Source: Gemmatirosa kalamazoonensis
Lineage (GTDB): Bacteria; Gemmatimonadota; Gemmatimonadetes; Gemmatimonadales; Gemmatimonadaceae
Assembly (NCBI RefSeq): GCF_000522985.1
Contig: NZ_CP007128.1
Location: forward strand, 3,518,220-3,582,219
DNA: 64,000 nucleotides
Reading direction: 5' to 3'
The translations under genes were made by a program, and so were the position numbers. Positions 34,460-50,761 of the stretch are shown piece after piece (the stretch's first letter is position 1; every line of letters begins with the position of its first letter). The notes beneath the pieces were generated by a model. The model had not been told where the DNA came from. It did not search any database and saw only the letters and a list, made by a program, of their open reading frames with translations.

Positions 34460-34822
34460 GTGGCCAAGTCCGTGCTCATCTGCGACGATGCGATCTTCAT
34501 GCGCACGATGGTCGGCGACATCCTCACGCAGGCCGGCTTCGACGTCATCGGCGAGGCCGAGTCGGGGATGCAGGCGGTGGAGCGCTACAAGGAGCTGCGC
34601 CCCGACCTGGTGACGATGGACATCGTGATGCCCGACATGGGCGGCATCGACGCCGTGCGCGAGATCGTGAAGCTCGATCCCGACGCGAAGGTGCTGATGT
34701 GCTCCGCCATGGGGCAGCAGGCGCTCGTGGTGGAGGCGATCCAGGCGGGCGCGAAGGACTTCGTCGTGAAGCCGTTCCAGCCGAGCCGCGTGCTGGAGGC
34801 CGTGACGCGCGTGCTGGGGTGA
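34460..34822 (+). CDS. cheY: CheY-like single-domain response regulator
   Basis: The 120-residue receiver domain is complete, with the acidic pair in ICDDAIF, phospho-acceptor aspartate in VTMDIVMPD, switch serine in LMCSAMG and lysine in FVVKPF. No output domain is attached, so it signals by protein contact. The GTG start follows GAGAGTGACGC. Its stop overlaps the cheA GTG. Likely phospho-donor is the adjacent CheA and likely phosphatase is CheC. Confidence 0.92.
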   Translation: MAKSVLICDDAIFMRTMVGDILTQAGFDVIGEAESGMQAVERYKELRPDLVTMDIVMPDMGGIDAVREIVKLDPDAKVLMCSAMGQQALVVEAIQAGAKDFVVKPFQPSRVLEAVTRVLG

Positions 34823-36720
34823 CGGCGCCGTCCACGGCGTCGCGCTACGCGGCGCTGTTCGCGACCGAGAGTCGCACACTGCTCCATGCGGCGGCGACGG
34901 CCGCGTCGGCGTTAGGCACGCCCGACGCGGCCGCGCGCGCAGCGGCGGTGGACGCGCTGTTCCGCGCCGTGCACTCGCTGAAGGGGATGGCCGGCGCGAT
35001 GGAGCTCGCGGCGGTGGAGACGTTCGCCCACGCGCTGGAGACCGCCCTCGCCGCGATGCGCGACGGCGCGCTCGCGATCGAGCCGATGCTCGTCGATACG
35101 ATCGTCGCCGCGGTCGATCGGCTGGACGAGGCGGTCGAGGCGTCGCTCGCCGGCCGCACGCTCGATCTCGCCGCGGACGCCGAGACGCTGCGCCAGTTCG
35201 CGAGCGACGCGCCGGCCGCGGCGCTGCCCACCGCCGCCGTGCTCACGCCGCTTCCCGGTGCGCCCGTCGTGCACGTTCGCATCGACCCCGATGCGGCGCT
35301 TCCCGGCGCGCGGGCCGCCGTCGCGGTGCGCAAGCTGGAGGCGTTAGGCACCCTCGACGCGTGCGTCCCGCCGCGCGACGCGTTGTTCGACGCGACGTTC
35401 GACGGCCGACTGAGCGTGCGGCTCCGCACCGCCGCGTCCGGCGAGGCGCTGCAGGCGGCGGCCCGCGCGGCCGGCGACGTCGCCGAGGTGCGCGTGGAGT
35501 CCGCGGCCGTCGTGGATCCCGCGTCGTCGCGCACGAGGGCCGCGTCGCCCCCGCCCGCGTCGCCTGCGCCCGCGGCGCTCGTGCGCGTGGAGCGCGCGCG
35601 GCTCGACGCGCTGCTCGACGTCGCGAGCGAGCTCACGATCGCGCGCGTCCGCCTCGCCGCGGCACTCGGCGGCGTCGCCGATCCCGCGGTCGCTGCGGCG
35701 GCGGCCGACATCGCGCGTCTCGTCGGCGCCTTGCACGAGGAGGTGCGCGGCACGCGCACCGCGCCCGCCGCGGACGTGTTCGAGCGGCTGCCGCGCGTGG
35801 TGCGCGATCTCGCGCGCGTGCTCGGCAAGCGCGCGGAGCTCGTCGTCGAGGGCGGCGACGTCGCGCTCGACCGCGCGGTGCTGGAGGAGCTGCACGAGCC
35901 GCTCGTGCATCTGCTGCGCAACGCGGTGAGCCACGGCCTCGAGTCGCCGGAGGAACGCGTGGCGGCGGGGAAGCCCGCCGTGGGCCGCATCGTGCTGCGC
36001 GCGGAGCGCGACCGCGACGCGGTGGTGGTGAGCGTGCGCGACGACGGCCGCGGCATCGACCGCGGGCGAGTGCGCGACCGTGCCGCCGACGACGGACGCG
36101 CGGTGCCGGACGCGCTCGACGATCACGCACTGCTCGCGCTCCTCGCGCGCCCCGGCTTCACGACGGCGCGCGAGGTGAGCAGCGTCTCCGGCCGCGGCGT
36201 CGGCGTCGATGCGGTGCGCGATCGCGTGCGCCGCTTCGGCGGCACGCTCTCGCTCTCCACGCAGGCCGGCGAGGGCACGTGCTTCTCCATGCGCCTGCCG
36301 CTCACGCTCGCCCTCGGCCGCGCGCTCGTCGCGCGCGTCGGCGGCTCCGCCGTGGCGGTGCCCGTGGGCAGCGTGCGCGAGACCGCCGACGTCGATGCCG
36401 AGTCGCTCGGCCACGACGGCGGGCGCGAGGTGTGGCGCGTGCGCGACGAGTCGCTGCGGGTGGTGCGGCTGCGCGACGCCCTCGGTGTTGCCTCCGCGCC
36501 TGCGGCCGCGTCCGAGGGCGAGATGGCGGTGATCGAGGCGGGCGAGCGGCGCGCGGCGCTGCTCGTCGATGCGCTCGACGGACAGCAGGACGTGATCGTG
36601 CGTCCGCTGCCGCCACTTCGCGGCGCGCTCAGGATCTTCGGCGGCGCGACGATACTCGTAGACGGAACGCCGGCGCTGGTGCTCGACGCCCCCACGCTGC
36701 TCCAGACAACCCTCGGATGA
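34819..36720 (+). CDS. cheA: CheA-type histidine kinase
   Basis: The 633-residue kinase has an N-terminal HPt domain with phospho-accepting His52 in AVHSLKGMAGAM. A middle domain (residues about 150-230) resembles a P2/ACT-like fold. The P3 dimerisation segment follows (VERARLDALLDVASELTIARVRL). The HATPase domain has the N box HLLRNAVSHGLE, G1 DDGRGID and G2 SGRGVGVDAVR. The C-terminal CheW-like P5 domain begins at LPLTLALGRALVARV. The GTG overlaps the cheY stop; the upstream extension of the frame is a shadow. No receiver domain is attached. Confidence 0.93.
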   Translation: MTAPSTASRYAALFATESRTLLHAAATAASALGTPDAAARAAAVDALFRAVHSLKGMAGAMELAAVETFAHALETALAAMRDGALAIEPMLVDTIVAAVDRLDEAVEASLAGRTLDLAADAETLRQFASDAPAAALPTAAVLTPLPGAPVVHVRIDPDAALPGARAAVAVRKLEALGTLDACVPPRDALFDATFDGRLSVRLRTAASGEALQAAARAAGDVAEVRVESAAVVDPASSRTRAASPPPASPAPAALVRVERARLDALLDVASELTIARVRLAAALGGVADPAVAAAAADIARLVGALHEEVRGTRTAPAADVFERLPRVVRDLARVLGKRAELVVEGGDVALDRAVLEELHEPLVHLLRNAVSHGLESPEERVAAGKPAVGRIVLRAERDRDAVVVSVRDDGRGIDRGRVRDRAADDGRAVPDALDDHALLALLARPGFTTAREVSSVSGRGVGVDAVRDRVRRFGGTLSLSTQAGEGTCFSMRLPLTLALGRALVARVGGSAVAVPVGSVRETADVDAESLGHDGGREVWRVRDESLRVVRLRDALGVASAPAAASEGEMAVIEAGERRAALLVDALDGQQDVIVRPLPPLRGALRIFGGATILVDGTPALVLDAPTLLQTTLG

Positions 36721-37355: not shown

Positions 37356-40016
37356 ATGTCGCAGCAGGACGCCGGCGCGCTCGCCGCGCTCGCGCGTCGC
37401 GCCGATCCGGCGGACGCGGGGGCGCAGAACAACCTCGGTGTCGTGCTGCTCGCCCGCGGCGAGCGGGCCGGGGCCGCCGCCGCCTTCGCGCGCGCGCTCG
37501 CGCTCGACCCGCGCATGACGCTCGCGCGGAGCAATCTCGACGCCGCGGGCGGGCTCGCCGTGCGCGCCCAGCGCGCCCAGGAGCTGCGCGCCCGCGTACG
37601 CGCCGACGGCGGCGATCTCGACGCGCGCCGCGAGCTCGCGCTGCTGCTCGCCGAGACGGGCCGCGCCGACGACGCGCGGCGCGAGTTCGACGCGCTGTGC
37701 GCGCTCGCGCCCGATGCACCCGGCCCGCGCATCCTCCGCGCGCTGTTCGAGCAGCGCGTCGGCGACCTGGACGCGGCGGAGGCGTGGCTCACGCAGGCCA
37801 TCGCGCTCGATCCGCGTGCCGCGCTGCCGCGCGCGCACCTCGGCGAGGTGGTCTATCACCGCGGTGAGCCCGCCCGCGCGCTCGCGGTGCTCGACGGGGC
37901 CATCGCGCTCGCGCCGGAGCACGCCGACGCGCACTGGGTCCGCGGCTTCGTGCTCGGCGAGCTCGGTCGCGCCGACGATGCGGCCGCCGCGACGGCGCGC
38001 GCGCTCGCGCTGAATCCGTCGCTCGGACGCGCGCAGCTGAACCTCGCGGCGCCCGGCGTCGCGCCCGAGGAGGTGGCCGCAGCGGTGGCCGCGGCGCCGT
38101 CGGCACCGTTAGGCGGGGCCGACGTGAACCTCGCGCTCGGCCTCGCGCTGCGCGAGAAGGGCTACTTCGACGAGGCGGTGCGCGAGTACCGCCGCGCGCT
38201 CGCCTGCGGCGCCGACGAGCGGCACGTCGCGCGCGCGCTCGGCGAGCTGCATCTGCTGCGCGGCGCGCCGGCCGACGCGCTGCCACACCTCTCACGCCTC
38301 GTCGAGCTCGCGCCGGACGACGCCGCGTCGTGGCACGCGCTCGGCGTCGCCGCGCATCTCGCGGGACGCGTGGTCGACTCGGAGGACGCGTACCGGCGCG
38401 GCGTCGCGCTCGCCGGCCAGCGTCGCGCCGCGGCGCCGATCCTGAACGACCTCGGCGTCCTGCGGGCCGCGCGCGGCGAGCGCGCGGAGGCGGTCGAGCT
38501 GCTGGGCGCCGCGGTGCGGCTCGACCCGACGCTACGGCGCGTGCGGCTGAACCACGCACAGCTCCTCGTCGCCACCGGCGCGCACGATCGCGCCCTCGCC
38601 GAGTATCGCGCGGTGTTGCGCGATGCCGCCGCCGACGCCGACGCGTGGACGGGCCTCGGCGCCATGCTCGCCGCCGCGGGACGCACCGCCGACGCGCGCG
38701 CCGCGCTCGCCCGCGCGCTCGACGCCGATCCCTCGCGCGCCGACGCGCGCTACGAGCTCGGTTTCCTCGCCGCGGCGGCGGGCGATCTCTCCGCGGCGCG
38801 TCGCGAGGCGGAGCACGCGATGGCGCACGCGCCGCTCGTCATGCGTCGCCCGCTGGAGCTGGCGCTCGACCTCGGCGGCGCCGTGCCGCTCACCGTCGCG
38901 CCCGCGCCCGACGCGCTCGATGCTCCGGTGCACGGCTTCTCGATCGCCGAGGACGCGCTCGACGCGCTGCTCGGCGACGTGCTCGCGCCGGCCGAGGAGC
39001 CGTCGGATCCGACCGCGCCTAACGATCCCGCGCGCGCGTTCGTCGTCGCCGAGGAGTGCCTGCGGGCCGGGCTCTACGAGCGCGCGTCCGCGGCGGTCAG
39101 CGCGGCACTCGCCCGCGGCGCGGACCGGGCCACCGGCCTCGTGCTCCTCGCCGACGCGTTCGCCGCGCAGGGCTACTTCGGCGAAGCGCTGGAGCGGTAT
39201 CAGGAGGCGCGTCAGGCGGACGCCGCGTCGCTGCGCGCGCGGCTGGGCGAGCTTCGCATGCTGCGCGAGACCGGCCGTCGCGACGCGTCGCTCGCCGCCG
39301 CGGACGCGTTCGTCGCCGACCACCCCGCGCACGCCGAGGCGCTCGCGCTCCTCGCCGTCGCGCGCGCGGATGCCGGCGATCCGGATGCCGCGCGCGAGGC
39401 CTTGGGCCGCGCCGAGGCGTTCGCCGACGACGCGGACGTGTGGGCGCTCGTCGCGCAGGCGTGGCGCGCGCTCGGCGAGCACGACGCCGAGGCCGACGCG
39501 TGCGGCCGCGGGCTCGCGCTCGCGCCGGAGCGCTGGCGGCTGCGTCTCACGCTCGCGCGCGCGCTCGCCGCGGCCGGGCACGATGACGCGGCGGAAGCCG
39601 CGCTCGCGCCGCTCGTGGAGCCGGCATCGGGCGGCGCGCGCCTCGTCGAGCCGTGCGTCGAGATGGCCGCGCTGCGTGCGCACGCCGGCGACCGCCGCGG
39701 CGCGCGCGCCCTGCTCGTCGACGTGCTCGCCGCCGACCCGCTGCACGTCGACGCGCTCGCGCAGCTCGGCGCGCTGCTGCTCGACGAGGGGCGCCTGGTC
39801 GACGCGGCCGTCGCCGTGCGCCGCGTGCTGCGCCTCGAGCCCGAGCACGCGCTCGCCCTCGCGCTCGACGGCGAGCTGCTCGTGCACGCGGGCGACGTGC
39901 CTAACGCACGCGCGCGCTGGAGACGCGTCGTGGAGCTGGAGCCGGCGAGCGTCGGCGCCATGCGCGCGCGCCGCGGGCTGTCGGCGCACGCGGGGCGCGT
40001 GGAGGCCGCCGCATGA
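37356..40016 (+). CDS. large TPR-repeat scaffold protein
   Basis: The 886-residue protein consists almost entirely of tetratricopeptide repeats, with recurring A-rich helix pairs such as NNLGVVLLARGERAGAAAAF and DVNLALGLALREKGYFDEA. No signal peptide or membrane helix is visible, so it is cytoplasmic. It lies between cheC and a DUF4388 gene that starts inside its last codons. TPR arrays serve as protein-binding platforms. In Myxococcus, a TPR protein (SgmX) binds MglA-GTP at the leading pole. A similar MglA-binding role here is a hypothesis based on the adjacent mglA. Confidence 0.85.
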   Translation: MSQQDAGALAALARRADPADAGAQNNLGVVLLARGERAGAAAAFARALALDPRMTLARSNLDAAGGLAVRAQRAQELRARVRADGGDLDARRELALLLAETGRADDARREFDALCALAPDAPGPRILRALFEQRVGDLDAAEAWLTQAIALDPRAALPRAHLGEVVYHRGEPARALAVLDGAIALAPEHADAHWVRGFVLGELGRADDAAAATARALALNPSLGRAQLNLAAPGVAPEEVAAAVAAAPSAPLGGADVNLALGLALREKGYFDEAVREYRRALACGADERHVARALGELHLLRGAPADALPHLSRLVELAPDDAASWHALGVAAHLAGRVVDSEDAYRRGVALAGQRRAAAPILNDLGVLRAARGERAEAVELLGAAVRLDPTLRRVRLNHAQLLVATGAHDRALAEYRAVLRDAAADADAWTGLGAMLAAAGRTADARAALARALDADPSRADARYELGFLAAAAGDLSAARREAEHAMAHAPLVMRRPLELALDLGGAVPLTVAPAPDALDAPVHGFSIAEDALDALLGDVLAPAEEPSDPTAPNDPARAFVVAEECLRAGLYERASAAVSAALARGADRATGLVLLADAFAAQGYFGEALERYQEARQADAASLRARLGELRMLRETGRRDASLAAADAFVADHPAHAEALALLAVARADAGDPDAAREALGRAEAFADDADVWALVAQAWRALGEHDAEADACGRGLALAPERWRLRLTLARALAAAGHDDAAEAALAPLVEPASGGARLVEPCVEMAALRAHAGDRRGARALLVDVLAADPLHVDALAQLGALLLDEGRLVDAAVAVRRVLRLEPEHALALALDGELLVHAGDVPNARARWRRVVELEPASVGAMRARRGLSAHAGRVEAAA

Positions 40017-40630
40017 CCGCGCCCGCCGAGCCGCGCGCCGCCGTCATCGAGGGCTCGCTGCGCGAGGTCGCACTGGCCGACGTGCTTCAGCTCCTGGAGC
40101 TCGGCCGCAAGACGGGCATCCTCCACGTCACGGACGCGGTGGCCGGCCGACGCGCGCACCTCACGCTCGTGCAGGGGCGCATCCGCGACGCGGTGATCGA
40201 CGGCGAGCTGGCGGCGCGCGGCGACCGGCAGGTGCGCGAGGTCGCGATCGAGCTGCTCGGCTGGTCGAGCGGCCGGTTCGCCGTGGAGCCGCTCGACGAG
40301 ACGACGGCGACGCGCGGCAGCACGGTCGGCGTCGACTCGGTGCTCATGGAGGCCGCGCGCCGCGCCGACGAGTGGGCGCGCCTCGCCGACCGGGTGCCCG
40401 GCGCGCACGCTGCGCCGCGCCTCGCTCCCGTCGCGCCGCACGCCGCGCCCGTCGTGCTCGCGCCCGAGGAGTGGGAGGTGCTCGCCTACGCCGACGGCGT
40501 GGCCGACCTGCGCGCGATCGCCGCGCGGAGCGGGCGCGACCTGCTCGCGGTGGCCGCCGCGGTGCACCGCCTCGTCGGCGAGGGCCTGCTGACGGTGACC
40601 CGCGACGCAGGGGACGCGTCAGAGATCTGA
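40013..40630 (+). CDS. DUF4388 (PATAN-like) protein
   Basis: The 205-residue protein begins with a DUF4388 domain (residues about 10-110): the characteristic DVLQLLELGRKTGILHV, then LVQGRIRDAVIDG and a FAVEPL strand. The C-terminal 70 residues look like a winged-helix-like fold (ADLRAIAARSGRDLLAVAAAVHRLVGEGLL). DUF4388/PATAN domains occur in PatA-type regulators and in MglA-linked proteins. Their biochemical role is not settled. ATG overlaps the end of the TPR gene, and mglA follows 15 bases after. A second DUF4388 gene lies three genes downstream. Confidence 0.82.
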   Translation: MTAPAEPRAAVIEGSLREVALADVLQLLELGRKTGILHVTDAVAGRRAHLTLVQGRIRDAVIDGELAARGDRQVREVAIELLGWSSGRFAVEPLDETTATRGSTVGVDSVLMEAARRADEWARLADRVPGAHAAPRLAPVAPHAAPVVLAPEEWEVLAYADGVADLRAIAARSGRDLLAVAAAVHRLVGEGLLTVTRDAGDASEI

Positions 40631-40645
40631 CCGGAGACCCGAACC

Positions 40646-41254
40646 GTGCCCCTCGTCAACTACGTCACGCGCGAGATCACCTGCAAGATCGTCTATTACG
40701 GGCCGGGTCGGTCCGGGAAGACGACGAACCTGCGCTTCATCCACGAGCGGCTGCCCGTGGATCGCGCCGGTCGCATGGTGTCGCTCGCGACCGAGGGGGA
40801 CCGCACGCTGTTCTTCGACTTCCTGCCGGTGGACCTCGGCGTCGTCGCGGGCTTCGCGACGCGCTTCCAGCTCTACACGGTGCCGGGACAGTCGTACTAC
40901 GCAGCCACGCGGCGCCTCGTGCTGCAGGGCGCCGACGCGGTGGTGTTCGTCGCCGACAGCCGCCGCCGCCAGCTCGACGAGAACGTCGAGAGCTTTCAGG
41001 ACCTGCACGAGCACCTCGCCGCGCACGGCGTCGATCCGCGGCAGGTGCCGCTCGTCCTGCAGTACAACAAGCAGGACCTCCCGCGCGAGATCGCGGCCGA
41101 TCCGAGCGAGCTCGCCGACGTGCTGAACTTCCGCGGCGTGCCGGAGTTCGCCGCCGACGCGCTGCGCGGCACGAACGTGTTCGAGACGATGCGCGCGGCG
41201 TGCGGCGCCGTGCTGCGCCGCCTCACGGCCGGCACCACGTTAGGCGCCGCGTGA
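40646..41254 (+). CDS. mglA: MglA-like small GTPase
   Basis: The 202-residue Ras-like GTPase has P-loop GPGRSGKTT, switch region MVSLATEGDRTLFFDFLP, the MglA-specific TVPGQ in place of DxxG, and NKQDL for guanine specificity. MglA sets the leading pole and drives gliding or type IV pilus motility in Myxococcus and Thermus. GTP hydrolysis normally needs MglB, a roadblock protein that is not encoded nearby. The GTG start has a GGAGA site. Its stop overlaps the next gene. Its presence inside a che module is the key link from chemosensory signalling to cell polarity. Confidence 0.92.
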   Translation: MPLVNYVTREITCKIVYYGPGRSGKTTNLRFIHERLPVDRAGRMVSLATEGDRTLFFDFLPVDLGVVAGFATRFQLYTVPGQSYYAATRRLVLQGADAVVFVADSRRRQLDENVESFQDLHEHLAAHGVDPRQVPLVLQYNKQDLPREIAADPSELADVLNFRGVPEFAADALRGTNVFETMRAACGAVLRRLTAGTTLGAA

Positions 41255-42306
41255 CGACGCTCGCCGCCGCGCGGACGCTCGTCTTCGACGAGCGCTTCCG
41301 CTTCGACACGTTCGTCGTCGGCGACGGCACGCGCGAGGCGGCGGAGGCGGCGCGCCTCGTCGCCGAGTCGCCGGGTGCGCGGTGGAACCCGCTCATCGTG
41401 CGCGCGGGGGCGGGGCAGGGCAAGTCGCACCTGTTAGGCGCCGTCGCGTCGCGCGCGCGCGAGCTGCATCCGGGTCGCCGCATGCTCGCGCTCAGCGCCG
41501 ACGAGTACCCGATGCCGCCGCTCGGCGACGCCGCCATCGTGCTCGTCGACGACGTGCGCGCCGGACTCGAGCCGACGCGTGCCGCCGCGCTCCGCGACCT
41601 GGTCGACGCCGCCCTCGCCGCCGGCGCGCAGGTCGTGATCGCGGAGGCGGGGACCGCCGTCTCGCGCGAGGAGGCCACCGCGTGGGTGGCGCGCAGCGCG
41701 CGCGCGCGACTCGTGCGCCTCACCGCGCCCGACGCTGAGGTGCGCCTCGCGATCGTGCGCCAGGCCGCCGCCGCCCGCTCGCTCACGCTCGCGCCGGACG
41801 TGCTCGCGAGCGTCGCGGACGAGCCGGTCGATTCGGTGCGCGAGCTGCTCGGGCGACTCGGCCGCGCGGGCACCGCGCCGGCGACCGAGCGCTTCTCGCT
41901 CGGCGACGACGGCGACTTCGCGAGCTTCCTCGACGAGGTCGCGCGCGAGGTCGCGGCGTACGCCGAGCCGTGGCGCGTCAGGCTGGGCGAGGCGAGCGCG
42001 CGGTGGCGTGCCGAGGGACACGACGTCGAGGTGCTGGAGCGCGCGCTTCGTGAGTCGGCCGCCCCCGACGTCGACGCGCTGCTGGCCGAGTTCGAGCGCG
42101 GCATCGCGCGGCAGCAGGAGGAGCGCGCGGCCGCGGAGCGCGAGGCGGCCGCGCGCGACGCCGCGCGCGTCGCCGCGCGCGTCGCCGCCGAGCAGGCTGC
42201 CAGGCGCGCCACGCCGGCGCCCACCACGCCGCCCGTCGTGAACGCCGAGGGGTGGGTGCTCGACTGGCCCGACGTGCGCGACCTGCTGGTGGAGGCGTAC
42301 CGCTGA
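41251..42306 (+). CDS. DnaA-type AAA+ ATPase without a recognised DNA-binding domain
   Basis: Residues about 10-190 of this 351-residue protein resemble the DnaA/Hda ATPase core: FRFDTFVVGDGTREAAEAA, WNPLIVRAGAGQGKSHLLGAV (Walker A) and IVLVDDV (Walker B). A sensor-like helical lid follows (APDVLASVADEPVDSVRELLGRL). The C-terminus has no DnaA box-binding HTH. It instead carries WRVRLGEASARWRAEGHDV, DVDALLAEFERGI and a long alanine/glutamate coiled coil. GTG overlaps the mglA stop. It may be a regulatory or assembly ATPase for this module. I know no characterised family with this function. Confidence 0.75.
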   Translation: MTTLAAARTLVFDERFRFDTFVVGDGTREAAEAARLVAESPGARWNPLIVRAGAGQGKSHLLGAVASRARELHPGRRMLALSADEYPMPPLGDAAIVLVDDVRAGLEPTRAAALRDLVDAALAAGAQVVIAEAGTAVSREEATAWVARSARARLVRLTAPDAEVRLAIVRQAAAARSLTLAPDVLASVADEPVDSVRELLGRLGRAGTAPATERFSLGDDGDFASFLDEVAREVAAYAEPWRVRLGEASARWRAEGHDVEVLERALRESAAPDVDALLAEFERGIARQQEERAAAEREAAARDAARVAARVAAEQAARRATPAPTTPPVVNAEGWVLDWPDVRDLLVEAYR

Positions 42307-43979
42307 TGGCCATCCGCGGCAGCCTCGCCGAAGCGGGCCTCCCCGACGTGCTGCAGCTCCTCGCGCTCGGTCAGAAGACCGGGTGCCTGAGCGTCGCGCG
42401 CGCCGGCGACTTCGGCTCGATCTACTTCGTGAACGGCCGCGTCGCGCACGCGTCGCTCGTGAACCGCCGCGACAAGCTCGGCGAGCAGCTGCTGCGCGCC
42501 GGCTCCGTCGACGCCGCGGACCTGAGCGCCGCCCTCGCCGAGCAGGTCGCCGATCCGTCGCGCCGCCTGGGCGAGCTGCTCATCCGCCGCGGCGCGGTCG
42601 ATCCCGCGGCGCTCGTGCGCCAGGCGCGCTTGCAGGTCGAGGAAGCGGTGCTCGAGCTGTTCACGTGGACGCAGGGGACGTTCAGCTTCGAGCCCGAGGT
42701 GCGCGTCGACCTTCCGGTCACCCCGCTCTCGATCGATCCGTCGGCGCTGCTGCTCGAGGGCGCGCGTCGCGCCGACGAGCGCGCGCGCATCGCGCACCAC
42801 GTACCGGGGCGCGACTCCGTGTTCGCGCCGGCCGCCGACGCGCCGCGCGACGCTGCCGGCGCGCTCGACGCCGAGCGTGTCGTGCCGCTGCTCGTCGCGC
42901 GCGAGATCGAGCTGTCGCCGGGCGAGCTGCGCGTCCTGCCGACGATCGACGGACGGCGCGACGTCGCGCAGCTCGCCGACGCCGCGGGCGTCGTGGAGTT
43001 CGACGCGATGCGCGCGCTGTTCGCGCTCGCCGACGCGGGGCTCGTCGTGCGCGTCGGCGCCACGACGCCGCCCGATCCGCGTGCGGGCGCGAAGCTCGAC
43101 GAGCATCGCAACCTCGGCGTCGCGTTCTACCGCGCGTCGCTGTTCGACGAGGCGGTGCGCGAGTTCAAGCGCGTGCTCGAGCTCTCGCCCACCGACGGCC
43201 ACGCACGCTTCCACCTCGGTCTCGTCGCGCTGCGCCGCGGCCGTTGGGCGGAGGCCGCGGGCTCGCTCGGCGAGGCGGCCGCGCTCCCCGGCGCGCCGGC
43301 CGTCGTGTTCCACGCGCTCGCCGTCGCGCGCCGCGAGCTCGGTGCGCTCGGCGACGCGCACGAGGCACTCGACGAGGCGGAGCGGCGCGGACTGCCCGTG
43401 GATGCGCGCGTGCAGGCGCTGCGCGTGTCGCTGCACCTGCGCGCCGGAAACGCCGACGCGGCGGACGTGCTGATGCGCGCCGGCGTCGGTGCCGACGCGG
43501 AGTCGCGCGCGCGCCCCGCGGCGTGGTACCATTATGCCGCGCTCTCGGCCGCGCGCGCGGGTGACGCCGCGCGCGCTGGCGAGCTGCTCGAGGCGGGGCA
43601 CGCGGCGCACCCGCGCGCCGCGGCGCTGCTCGCGAACCTCGCCGCGCTCCGGCTGCACGAAGGGCGCGCCGAGGACGCACTGCGACACGCGGAGGCGGCG
43701 CTCGCCGAGGACGCGACGCTCGCGCCGGCGCACAAGACCGCGGGCGACGCGCACTACCGCGCCGGGCGATTCGCCGACGCGGCGGCGTGCTACGAGCGCG
43801 CCGTCGCGATCGCGCCCGCGGCGGGTGCCGATGCGTGGCTGCGGCTGGGCAACGTGAGGCTCCGACAGGGCGACCGCGACGCGGCGGCCGTGGCGTGGCG
43901 CCGCGCGTTGGAGGTCGATCCGCAGCACGCGATCGCGCGCGGCAATCTCGCGGCACTCGGACGCGAGGTGCCCGCGTGA
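42306..43979 (+). CDS. DUF4388 domain fused to TPR repeats
   Basis: The 557-residue protein starts with a DUF4388 domain (residues about 1-100: DVLQLLALGQKTGCLSV, YFVNGRVAHASL). A helical region follows with repeated LGELLIRRGAV-type segments (about 60-150). A winged-helix-like stretch lies around 220-260, and TPR repeats cover 260-540 (NLGVAFYRASLFDEAVREFKR). The DVLQLL..GxKTG motif is shared with the 205-residue DUF4388 protein upstream, so the two are likely paralogues. Start overlaps the ATPase stop; cheR overlaps its end. This is a plausible scaffold or sensor of the module. Confidence 0.85.
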   Translation: MAIRGSLAEAGLPDVLQLLALGQKTGCLSVARAGDFGSIYFVNGRVAHASLVNRRDKLGEQLLRAGSVDAADLSAALAEQVADPSRRLGELLIRRGAVDPAALVRQARLQVEEAVLELFTWTQGTFSFEPEVRVDLPVTPLSIDPSALLLEGARRADERARIAHHVPGRDSVFAPAADAPRDAAGALDAERVVPLLVAREIELSPGELRVLPTIDGRRDVAQLADAAGVVEFDAMRALFALADAGLVVRVGATTPPDPRAGAKLDEHRNLGVAFYRASLFDEAVREFKRVLELSPTDGHARFHLGLVALRRGRWAEAAGSLGEAAALPGAPAVVFHALAVARRELGALGDAHEALDEAERRGLPVDARVQALRVSLHLRAGNADAADVLMRAGVGADAESRARPAAWYHYAALSAARAGDAARAGELLEAGHAAHPRAAALLANLAALRLHEGRAEDALRHAEAALAEDATLAPAHKTAGDAHYRAGRFADAAACYERAVAIAPAAGADAWLRLGNVRLRQGDRDAAAVAWRRALEVDPQHAIARGNLAALGREVPA

Positions 43980-44839
43980 CGACGCTCACCATCACATCCC
44001 CTGCAGCACTCGTGACCGCTCCCCTCGATGCCGACGATCCGGAAGGCCTCGCCCGTCTCCTCGTGAAGGTGACGGTGGAGCGCGGCTTCCGCTGCGGCAG
44101 CTACAAGGAGCGGTGCCTGCGGCGGCGCATCGCGGTGCGCATGCGCGCGAAGGGCGTCCACACGTTCGACGACTACGCGCGCGTGCTCGACGCCGACGCG
44201 CACGAATACGACCGGCTGCTCGACGCGCTCACGATCAACGTCACGAAGCTGTTCCGGAACTGGGACTCGTGGAGCGCGCTCGCCGCGAAGGCGCTGCCGA
44301 AGCTGTGGGACGTCACCGGCGGCGCGATGCGCGTGTGGAGCGCCGGCACGTCGTCGGGCGAGGAGGCGTACTCGCTCGCCGCGCTGCTGCATCGCCACGC
44401 CGAGTCGCGCGGCGAGACCGCGCGGCTCGACGGCGCGCTCGTGTTAGGCACCGACATCGACCGTGCGAGCCTCGCGGCCGCCGCGCGCGGCACGTTCGGC
44501 GACGCGGCGTTCGCCGACACGCCAGCGGAGCTGCGCGAGCGCTACTTCCCGGGCGCGCTCCCGGCGGCCGCGGCGCCCGAGCTGCGCTCGCTCGTCGCGT
44601 TCGAGCACCGCGACCTGCTGCTCGAGCCGCCGCCGGCCGGGCCGTGGCACCTCATCGTGTGCCGCAACGTGTTGATCTACTTCGACCGGCAGACGCAGGA
44701 GGTGCTGTTCGAGCGCTTTCACGAGGCGCTCGCGCCCGGCGGCATGCTGTTCCTCGGCAAGGTGGAGACGCTGCTCGGGCCGGCCCGACAGCGCTTCGCC
44801 GCGGTGGACCAACGTGAGCGCATCTACCGCCGCCTCTGA
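43976..44839 (+). CDS. cheR: CheR methyltransferase
   Basis: The 287-residue enzyme uses S-adenosylmethionine to methylate receptor glutamates. An N-terminal all-helical domain (RRRIAVRMRAKGV, DRLLDALTINVTKLFRNW) is followed by the SAM-binding core. Visible motifs are WSAGTSSGEEAYSLA, VLGTDID and IVCRNVLIYFD. GTG overlaps the preceding stop, and cheB starts inside it. Since no MCP is encoded nearby, its methyl acceptor is elsewhere in the genome or is a non-MCP protein. Confidence 0.94.
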   Translation: MTTLTITSPAALVTAPLDADDPEGLARLLVKVTVERGFRCGSYKERCLRRRIAVRMRAKGVHTFDDYARVLDADAHEYDRLLDALTINVTKLFRNWDSWSALAAKALPKLWDVTGGAMRVWSAGTSSGEEAYSLAALLHRHAESRGETARLDGALVLGTDIDRASLAAAARGTFGDAAFADTPAELRERYFPGALPAAAAPELRSLVAFEHRDLLLEPPPAGPWHLIVCRNVLIYFDRQTQEVLFERFHEALAPGGMLFLGKVETLLGPARQRFAAVDQRERIYRRL

Positions 44840-45467
44840 GCTGGCGCCCGCGCCGCGGGTCACGCGCCATCCGTCCCGGGTGGTGGTCATCGCCGCGTCC
44901 ACCGGTGGGCCTAACGCGCTCGCCCGCGTGCTCCCCGCGCTGCCGGCGTCGCTCGGTGCCGCGGTGCTCGTGGCGCAGCACATGCCGCCGGGCTTCACCG
45001 GCTCGCTCGCCCGCCGCCTCGACGCACTGAGCGCGCTTCCCGTGCGCGAGGCCGTGCAGGGCGACGTGCTCGAGCCGGACCACGTGTACCTCGCGCCGGG
45101 CGGCCTGCACATCCTCGTAGATCTCGCCGACGGCGTGCCGTGCGTGCGCCTCGACCCCCGCGAGCCGCTGTGGGGCGTCCGTCCCGCGGCCGACCTGCTG
45201 TTCGAGTCCGCCGCGCGCGCGTTCGGCGAGTGCACCGTCGGCGTGGTGCTCACCGGCATGGGGCGCGACGGCGCGGCGGGTCTGCGCGCGGTGCGCCGGG
45301 CCGGCGGCGCCGCGCTCGTGCAGGACCGCGACTCGTCCGTCGTGTTCGGCATGCCGCAGGCCGCGCTCGATGCGGCCGGCGCGGATCGTGTCGTGCCGCT
45401 CGCGGAGCTCGGCCAGGCCGTCGCCGACGCCGTGCGCCATCTCCCGCCTAACGTCCCCGCCGTCTGA
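44814..45467 (+). CDS. cheB: CheB methylesterase domain without receiver
   Basis: The 217-residue protein is a CheB catalytic domain only. The catalytic serine is in IAASTGGPN, histidine in AQHMPPGF and aspartate in GMGRDGAAG. Usual CheB carries an N-terminal receiver that blocks and controls the active site; here there are only about 22 polar residues before the domain. Activity would therefore be constitutive or controlled by another protein. GTG 44814 lies within cheR. Confidence 0.9.
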   Translation: MSASTAASELAPAPRVTRHPSRVVVIAASTGGPNALARVLPALPASLGAAVLVAQHMPPGFTGSLARRLDALSALPVREAVQGDVLEPDHVYLAPGGLHILVDLADGVPCVRLDPREPLWGVRPAADLLFESAARAFGECTVGVVLTGMGRDGAAGLRAVRRAGGAALVQDRDSSVVFGMPQAALDAAGADRVVPLAELGQAVADAVRHLPPNVPAV

Positions 45468-49702: not shown

Positions 49703-49730
49703 CCACAGTCTAGCTTGCCTGGACGCACGA

Positions 49731-49758
49731 TTGACCCGTTTTCGAGCAACGCTAGGTT
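49731..49758 (+). promoter_or_regulatory. promoter of the division/cell-wall cluster
   Basis: TTGACC (49731-49736) and TAGGTT (49753-49758) are 16 bases apart. The -10 box ends ten bases before the rsmH ATG at 49769, so the leader would be only a few bases. The same TAGGTT lies nine bases before the cdaA start. Confidence 0.45.
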
Positions 49759-49768
49759 GCCGTGTCCG

Positions 49769-50761
49769 ATGGCTGAACGTGCTCGGTGGGATAGTGCGTA
49801 TCACGCGCCCGTACTCGCGGCCGAGATCGTCCGTCTCCTTCGAGAGGCTCCAGCCACAGTCCGTCGAGCCGGCACCTCCCTCCCGCTCGCGCTCGACGGC
49901 ACGCTCGGTGGTGGTGGCCACTCGCTCGCGCTCCTCGAGGCGGGCTTCCGGGTCGTCGGTACCGATCGGGATCCACAGGCGCTCGCCGAGGCCTCGGCCC
50001 GCCTGCAGGCCTACCTGAACGACGGGCGCTTCCGCGCTCTCCTCGCCAACTACGCCGACGTCGCCGAGCTCGACGCGTTCTCCTCCGAGCGCCTCGACGC
50101 AGTCCTCCTCGACCTCGGCATCTCGTCTCACCAGATCGACGACCTCTCGCGCGGCTTCTCCTTTCGGGAGGGAGTCGCGCTCGACATGCGGATGGGAACT
50201 GACGCACGGACGGACGCGGCCACGTTCCTCAACGACGCCGACGAGCGCGAGCTCGTTCGCGTCTTCCGCGAGTACGCCGACGAGCCCCGCGCGCCGCGCC
50301 TCGCGCGCGAGATCACGCGACGCCGAGCGACGCGCGCGTTCGCCACGAGCGACGATCTCGTGGGCGCGATTCGCGGCGCGCTCGGTCCCCGCACCGGCCC
50401 CGGCGACTTCGCCCGCCTGTTCCAGGCGGTGCGCATCGAGGTGAACGACGAGCTGTCGCGCCTCGCGCAGGCGCTGCCGGCGCTGCGCGATCGCCTCGCC
50501 CCCGGCGGCCGCATGGCGATCATCGCCTACCACAGCGGCGAGGACCGCCTCGTGAAGCACGCGTTCCGCGAGTGGAGCACCGGCTGCATCTGCCCGCCGC
50601 GCCAGCCGATCTGCACGTGCGGCCACGTCGCGCTCGGCGAGACCGTCACGCGCCGGGCGGTGGAGGCCGGGGACGCCGAGCGCGAGCACAACCCGCGCGC
50701 GCGCAGCGCGAAGCTGCGCGTCTGGCAGCGCGCCGAGGTGCCGGCGGAGGTGGCGTCGTGA
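49769..50761 (+). CDS. rsmH: 16S rRNA m4C1402 methyltransferase
   Basis: The 330-residue RsmH (MraW) methylates C1402 in 16S rRNA. Visible motifs are HAPVLAAE near the start, DGTLGGGGHS (SAM-binding), DLGISSHQID and GRMAIIAYHSGEDRLVK near the end. The ATG is chosen because upstream in-frame codons lie in the promoter. It is the first gene of the dcw cluster and lacks an upstream mraZ. ftsL overlaps its stop. Confidence 0.94.
   Translation: MAERARWDSAYHAPVLAAEIVRLLREAPATVRRAGTSLPLALDGTLGGGGHSLALLEAGFRVVGTDRDPQALAEASARLQAYLNDGRFRALLANYADVAELDAFSSERLDAVLLDLGISSHQIDDLSRGFSFREGVALDMRMGTDARTDAATFLNDADERELVRVFREYADEPRAPRLAREITRRRATRAFATSDDLVGAIRGALGPRTGPGDFARLFQAVRIEVNDELSRLAQALPALRDRLAPGGRMAIIAYHSGEDRLVKHAFREWSTGCICPPRQPICTCGHVALGETVTRRAVEAGDAEREHNPRARSAKLRVWQRAEVPAEVAS

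Follow-up and report, generated by a model that had tools for sequence, protein, structure and literature searches.

Why should an ATPase of the DnaA kind be encoded inside a chemosensory gene cluster, directly behind the gene of an MglA-type GTPase, and which part of it matters there? The question is raised by a gene at positions 41251-42306 of a stretch of 64,000 nucleotides from Gemmatirosa kalamazoonensis (contig NZ_CP007128.1); this whole stretch is called the window, and all positions refer to it. The window protein is well supported as a reduced member of a DnaA-derived AAA+ family tied to one chemosensory/MglA/PATAN-TPR locus of the Gemmatimonadota, and we have very little doubt about its identity and history or about those of the family. 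As to function, the best explanation, to which we give a probability of about 0.45, would be that the protein is an adaptor of the PATAN/TPR protein encoded next to it, within a pathway from chemosensory system and MglA to type IV pili; the DnaA-type ATPase would be accessory and probably coupled to c-di-GMP sensing.

In the open-access literature, which omits most subscription journals, no prior description of this DnaA-like family was found, nor any paper joining DnaA with MglA and PATAN. The open-access papers found on tandem DnaA or DnaA-like proteins deal with replication, plasmid and virus topics.

Genomic context of the DnaA-like gene

The genes of the cluster referred to below are as follows.

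34460..34822, forward strand: CheY-like receiver, same cluster, conserved in relatives
34822..36720, forward strand: CheA, same cluster
40013..40630, forward strand: upstream single-PATAN (DUF4388) protein (Pfam), without MshEN insert in the window genome
40646..41254, forward strand: MglA-type small GTPase, directly upstream of the DnaA-like gene
41251..42306, forward strand: DnaA-derived AAA+ gene, 351 aa, reduced member of the Gemmatimonadota family
42306..43979, forward strand: PATAN (DUF4388)/TPR protein, 557 aa from the ATG, constant downstream partner (Pfam, synteny, tree)
43980..44839, forward strand: CheR, start approximate (Pfam)
44814..45467, forward strand: CheB methylesterase domain protein (Pfam)

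The GTG start of the DnaA-like gene lies within the mglA stop codon (GTGA overlap), as a preliminary description of this DNA had stated, and the gene ends three bases ahead of the ATG of the next one. Its GC content by codon position (0.84, 0.56 and 0.96; GC3 0.957) matches that of its neighbours. The genome comprises 7.48 Mb in 4 contigs and encodes a single further protein of the DnaA type, the product of the true dnaA (C2:1209662, 1.21 Mb), which is separate and full-length and belongs to a different clade of the domain tree. An association of the window gene with dnaA or dnaN was not found; the gene stands in the che/mglA cluster.

The order of this cluster is strongly conserved across Gemmatimonadota, other families included. 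The locus appears to govern movement over surfaces. In 20 regions the order reads, with few exceptions, CheY, CheA, CheC-like, TPR, PATAN, MglA, DnaA-like gene, PATAN/TPR, CheR, CheB. This conservation argues for a role of the DnaA-like protein in the locus, and the view that a DnaA-type ATPase belongs to a signalling cluster, already held in the preliminary description, is borne out by it. Away from the cluster, most genomes of the phylum encode another MglA-type GTPase (E about 1e-56 to 1e-60), which persists where the cluster copy is gone.

Domain architecture and distribution of the family

The usual ortholog has about 600-690 aa and consists of a first AAA+ domain (AAA+1), a helical module, a second AAA+ domain (AAA+2) and a C-terminal tail. 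The corresponding parts of the window gene are listed here.

41278..41904, forward strand: AAA+1, DnaA domain III-like, residues 10-218 (Pfam, alignment, structure match)
41404-41427, forward strand: Walker A AGAGQGKS, kept in AAA+1
about 41536-41553, forward strand: Walker B ..VLVDD, kept in AAA+1
41908..42180, forward strand: helical module, about residues 220-310, between the two AAA+ domains in most orthologs (alignment)
41914..41961, forward strand: module helix 1 (residues 222-237), retained in the microprotein clade (see below)
42190..42237, forward strand: low-complexity joint, site of AAA+2 in most orthologs (alignment)
42238..42303, forward strand: C-terminal tail WVLDWPDVRDLLVEAYR (ortholog alignment)

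It had been proposed that the DNA-binding domain of a DnaA-like protein was replaced here by a new C-terminus. The tandem architecture of the orthologs contradicts this: the supposed new C-terminus is the module that ordinarily separates the two ATPases, and AAA+2 has been lost behind it. The alanine/glutamate coiled coil described at this place is indeed helical, but it is really the far end of the conserved module, followed by the conserved tail. The core of the module is predicted to be helical with high confidence (AlphaFold, pLDDT 94-97 over residues 241-300), and a counterpart of the tail, EKxVWxWPxxxxRxIEExR, closes every complete ortholog examined. Between module and tail, the three forward frames of the window gene hold no remnant of AAA+2, a domain likewise missing from the copies in f6, f9, g17 and the sister genomes L048 and L050. 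The C-terminal HTH (domain IV) of DnaA is absent from the Pfam matches at E<=0.1, in agreement with the preliminary description, and neither Pfam nor NCBIfam gave a match to any DNA-binding domain, HTH or otherwise, in the C-terminal part. No Pfam family covers the helical module and, in a search for solved relatives by sequence, the family profile matched AAA+ parts only, among the matches listed.

All 59 relatives searched contain a match to the window protein, the true DnaA being the only one in some. The module profile matches 179 of 295 Gemmatimonadota genomes (all at least 90% complete), nearly always with one copy each. The window copy is found by this profile (A2) with E=1.2e-29; it is itself 1 of the 19 profile rows, so that the independent support for its module comes from alignment and synteny. 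In G218 both AAA+ domains are present and the module is too divergent for the profile. An apparent absence of the gene in four genomes (G285, G159, G180, G251) looks like an effect of contig ends; the partners there keep their MshEN insert. Scanning 84,980 species genomes for the motif IL[RKE]WEGEG returned 24 relatives, all of them Gemmatimonadota, which is weak evidence that the module may be restricted to this phylum because the scan used one short motif; an alignment of wider scope offered no stretch of sufficient conservation. Among the matches listed for plasmid records there was only true DnaA.

Serial loss of the ATPase domains

The domain tree places AAA+1, AAA+2 and true DnaA in a clade each (99/96, 100/99 and 96/87). 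Architectures were mapped onto a midpoint-rooted tree of the PATAN/TPR partner comprising 61 rows. Families f1 to f5 have AAA+2; it is missing from f6, f9, the pair L049/L101 and the clade of the window (window, L048, L050; 100/100). Since the three clades are separate, AAA+2 was, most simply, present in the common ancestor of the family and repeatedly lost thereafter, about five times with the microprotein clade counted; AAA+1 appears to have been lost three times, in the sisters L048/L050, in L087 and in the microprotein clade. These counts presuppose a single gain of AAA+2 and the midpoint rooting. In f5 (L097, L099, G218) the P-loop of AAA+2 is degenerate, L099 having 'VVGRGGTDPRDLL' instead of Walker A; this may represent an intermediate state of loss.

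The module profile matches nothing in the genera g5, g7 and g30. Outright gene loss was considered and rejected, as a short frame was found in the gap: it lies within the 230-260 bp 5' of the partner start at 8/8 loci and ends at the partner ATG in each of them. Its product, a microprotein of about 65 residues (~60-75 aa), is a fusion of module helix 1 (EFxSFLxDIAxxVAxRVESL) with the tail (..IVEWPxxxxRMIEEMR). The 8 genomes that carry it form a monophyletic clade (100/99). Synonymous and nonsynonymous codon differences in two close microprotein pairs (6/7 and 12/7) are too few to prove selection.

Sequence comparison identifies module helix 1 and the tail as the parts that are constant across the family. 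Nature has thus provided a domain-deletion experiment, a series running from a 650-residue protein with two ATPases through forms with one and none to a 65-residue remnant at the same place of the operon, and it marks the short helix and tail as the retained part. Because relatives without either AAA+ domain keep the module, or at least helix 1 and the tail, the ATPase is unlikely to be central to what the protein does.

The MshEN insert of the PATAN/TPR partner

MshEN has been described as two 24-residue motifs of the form RLGxx(LVI)(LVI)xxG..., about 5 residues apart (PMC5013675). The window partner contains such a pair.

42474..42635, forward strand: MshEN-type motif pair (predicted c-di-GMP binding) within the partner's PATAN domain (9/10 and 9/10 positions, spacer 6)

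The MshE-type model NF053729 (NCBIfam) gives the window partner 34.1 bits, just below the cut-off of 38, and it gives the partners of L043, L041 and L048 scores above it. The insert is kept at every one of the 63 module-bearing loci examined, of which about 57 are distinct, usually with 8-10/10 positions per motif. Weak motifs were seen in L087 (7/10 and 7/10) and in L042 (6/10 in the second motif copy), and in the L050 partner both MshEN arginines are replaced. As L050 also lacks MglA at the locus and any AAA+ domain, its whole signalling layer looks reduced.

The partners in the microprotein clade have lost the insert, and other residues as well (430 aa compared with 540 aa). The upstream PATAN gene served as a control: in these genomes it still carries at least one MshEN motif (8/10); hence, the loss of the insert is specific to the PATAN/TPR partner. 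A link between the loss of AAA+ domains and module and the loss of the insert is suggested by this pattern, and is suggestive only, because the monophyly of the clade makes the co-loss a single evolutionary event and because L048 is an exception: it has lost both AAA+ domains and its MshEN motifs are perfect (10/10 and 10/10), so any coupling between ATPase and insert is not strict.

The co-loss might alternatively be a coincidence, both proteins having been trimmed under genome reduction. One event is all there is, several genomes of the clade are small (2.5-3.7 Mb), and the additional shortening of the partner would fit general trimming. We nevertheless consider coincidence rather doubtful, given the motif kept in the upstream PATAN gene and the exact sparing of helix 1 and tail, and we retain a coupling of the ATPase to the insert as part of the adaptor explanation.

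The upstream PATAN gene (40013-40630) shows a pattern of its own: it lacks the MshEN insert in the window and in L048, and at least one motif is kept in the microprotein clade, including L138. The two PATAN genes thus lose the insert independently.

PATAN/TPR as the constant neighbour

Since mglA overlaps the DnaA-like gene and adjoins it in nearly all relatives, the protein might act mainly on MglA, a known polarity switch in Myxococcus (PMC11580455), as its effector, chaperone or exchange factor, and the PATAN/TPR protein would then be a mere neighbour. However, the DnaA-like gene is kept and MglA is missing at the loci L143 and L144 (genus g4) and L050 (G030), and at L045 (G039) the local MglA is only 41% identical. 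Because MglA can be missing while the DnaA-like gene stays, the constant neighbour is, as judged from the sequences, the downstream PATAN/TPR gene and not MglA or CheA. An action chiefly on MglA is improbable for this reason, and the PATAN/TPR protein is preferred as the partner that the adaptor would serve.

The AAA+1 domain of the window protein

The preliminary description had assigned the N-terminal part to the DnaA AAA+ pattern and quoted DnaA-type motifs from it. These motifs are present in the translation of the 351-aa frame, and Pfam Bac_DnaA (PF00308) matches residues 13-86 (E=1.1e-15; 58.6 bits against a cut-off of 23); no other Pfam family was matched by the protein at E<=0.01. A structure prediction, which had been recommended, confirmed the fold of DnaA domain III: in the AlphaFold model (pLDDT 84), residues 10-218 superimpose on it with Z 22 and an rmsd of 2.4 A over 205 residues. 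Ranked by structure, DnaA (Z 22; 8btg, 2z4r, 8bv3) comes ahead of Hda (16; 3bos) and other AAA+ proteins (~14). The Foldseek and VIA rows for the model span residues 2-217 only.

The window protein thus has the AAA+ fold and sequence of residues 10-218 in common with DnaA. Unlike DnaA, it is without domains I, II and IV, its gene is not near dnaN, the usual ortholog of the family carries two AAA+ domains, and the DnaA model TIGR00362 reaches 83.8 bits against a cut-off of 343.9. Hda is likewise a DnaA-type AAA+ protein without domain IV, but the window gene is in a different operon and of tandem ancestry, no sliding-clamp-binding motif was seen by eye in residues 1-20, and the NCBIfam Hda equivalog model TIGR03420 stays below its cut-off (44.1 against 194.8 bits).

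AAA+1 retains both Walker motifs (A and B) and the sensor II VREL with its arginine. The ortholog alignment shows a 15-residue gap at the position of the DnaA ISM helices, and the sensor I and box VII arginine patterns are lost too; most orthologs keep all three. In the domain tree the window AAA+1 sits on a very long branch (1.63) inside the AAA1 clade. In DnaA, single-stranded DNA is contacted by the ISM, and the arginine finger is part of box VII. The window AAA+1 is probably still able to bind ATP. With ISM, sensor I and box VII lost, neither binding of single-stranded DNA nor a DnaA-type filament is to be expected of it; a role as nucleotide-gated clamp or remnant scaffold is more likely.

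The long branch, the three lost elements and the sister genomes L048 and L050, which are without AAA+1 entirely, would also fit a decaying remnant with little function. We give little credence to this, as the frame is open with a strong codon bias, Walker A and B, sensor II, module and tail are all kept, and the gene is still translationally coupled to mglA. That the protein is a DnaA- or Hda-like DNA-associated regulator linking replication or the nucleoid to polarity is very improbable. Its DnaA-type AAA+ fold (Z 22) and a nearby cell-division cluster (rsmH at 49715) would suit such a role, but no DnaA domain IV is recognised, the ISM helices are deleted in the window, the Hda model stays at 44 bits against 195, and both AAA+ domains are dispensable in relatives. 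An adaptor with an accessory ATPase remains our preferred explanation.

Proposed function and related systems

From the observed domain identity, ancestry, context, reduction and co-loss we infer docking, c-di-GMP coupling and pilus output in the following way. Helix 1 and the tail would dock the DnaA-like protein onto the PATAN/TPR protein, or onto a common target. The PATAN/TPR protein would act on the type IV pilus extension machinery, in the manner of SgmX or of PATAN response regulators. The remainder of the module and the AAA+ domains would together make up an ATP-dependent layer, which would either act on the c-di-GMP state of the PATAN domain's MshEN insert or report that state. Loss of the insert would make this layer useless, and the layer would consequently be lost too.

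A link of the locus to type IV pili is indicated by context only. The window genome encodes PilM, three PilT-type ATPases and two Roadblock proteins, and PilM is also found in many genomes without the module. In Myxococcus, MglA acts on PilB via the TPR protein SgmX (PMC11580455); in cyanobacteria, PATAN regulators are tied to pili, and PixE has been reported to bind PilB1 (PMC7690835). A survey of the Ras superfamily lists PATAN genes near Group 1 MglA and mentions no DnaA there (PMC4316618).

The Gemmatimonadota locus resembles the MglA-SgmX-SopA-FrzS network of Myxococcus in that MglA, a TPR protein and accessory proteins occur together with type IV pili and chemosensory control (PMC11580455). 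There, too, the TPR effector has a partner not known from other contexts, SopA, which was reported from Myxococcales only, and no DnaA-type ATPase has been reported for that network (PMC11580455). In contrast to SgmX, the Gemmatimonadota TPR protein bears a PATAN domain with an MshEN insert. The locus also resembles PixG, PixE and LsiR, in which a PATAN domain connects chemosensory systems with pili (PMC7690835); here, however, PATAN is fused to TPRs and not to a receiver, and the gene of a DnaA-derived partner adjoins. With MshE and the MshEN receptor it has the tandem 24-residue motifs in common, known here from sequence. In MshE, a single protein contains motif and ATPase, whereas in Gemmatimonadota a pair of neighbouring genes encodes them separately, with an ATPase of DnaA type.

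A bolder version, which we put forward as speculation and think unlikely to hold in full, would treat the locus as a split MshE, its sensor encoded by one gene and its ATPase by the neighbouring one: the DnaA-family ATPase would add to a PATAN/TPR pilus regulator a modular and dispensable layer that responds to c-di-GMP, and the essential core would be a 60-residue adaptor (helix plus Trp-Pro tail) used alone in some lineages. The ATPase layer and the c-di-GMP motif of its neighbour may belong together. In this family the DnaA ATPase fold apparently serves a purpose other than replication, within a signalling locus conserved across a phylum, and the findings are relevant to the convergence of MglA-type GTPases, chemosensory systems and c-di-GMP on type IV pili in organisms other than Myxococcus.

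Two observations concern the region behind the cluster. A weak PilM_2 match at the right edge of the window (64000) may be ftsA. The gene rsmH (mraW; 49715-50761) follows the chemosensory cluster, and it lies near the cluster also in L033, L045, L046, L091 and L139; the motility and cell-division clusters therefore seem to be long-standing neighbours.
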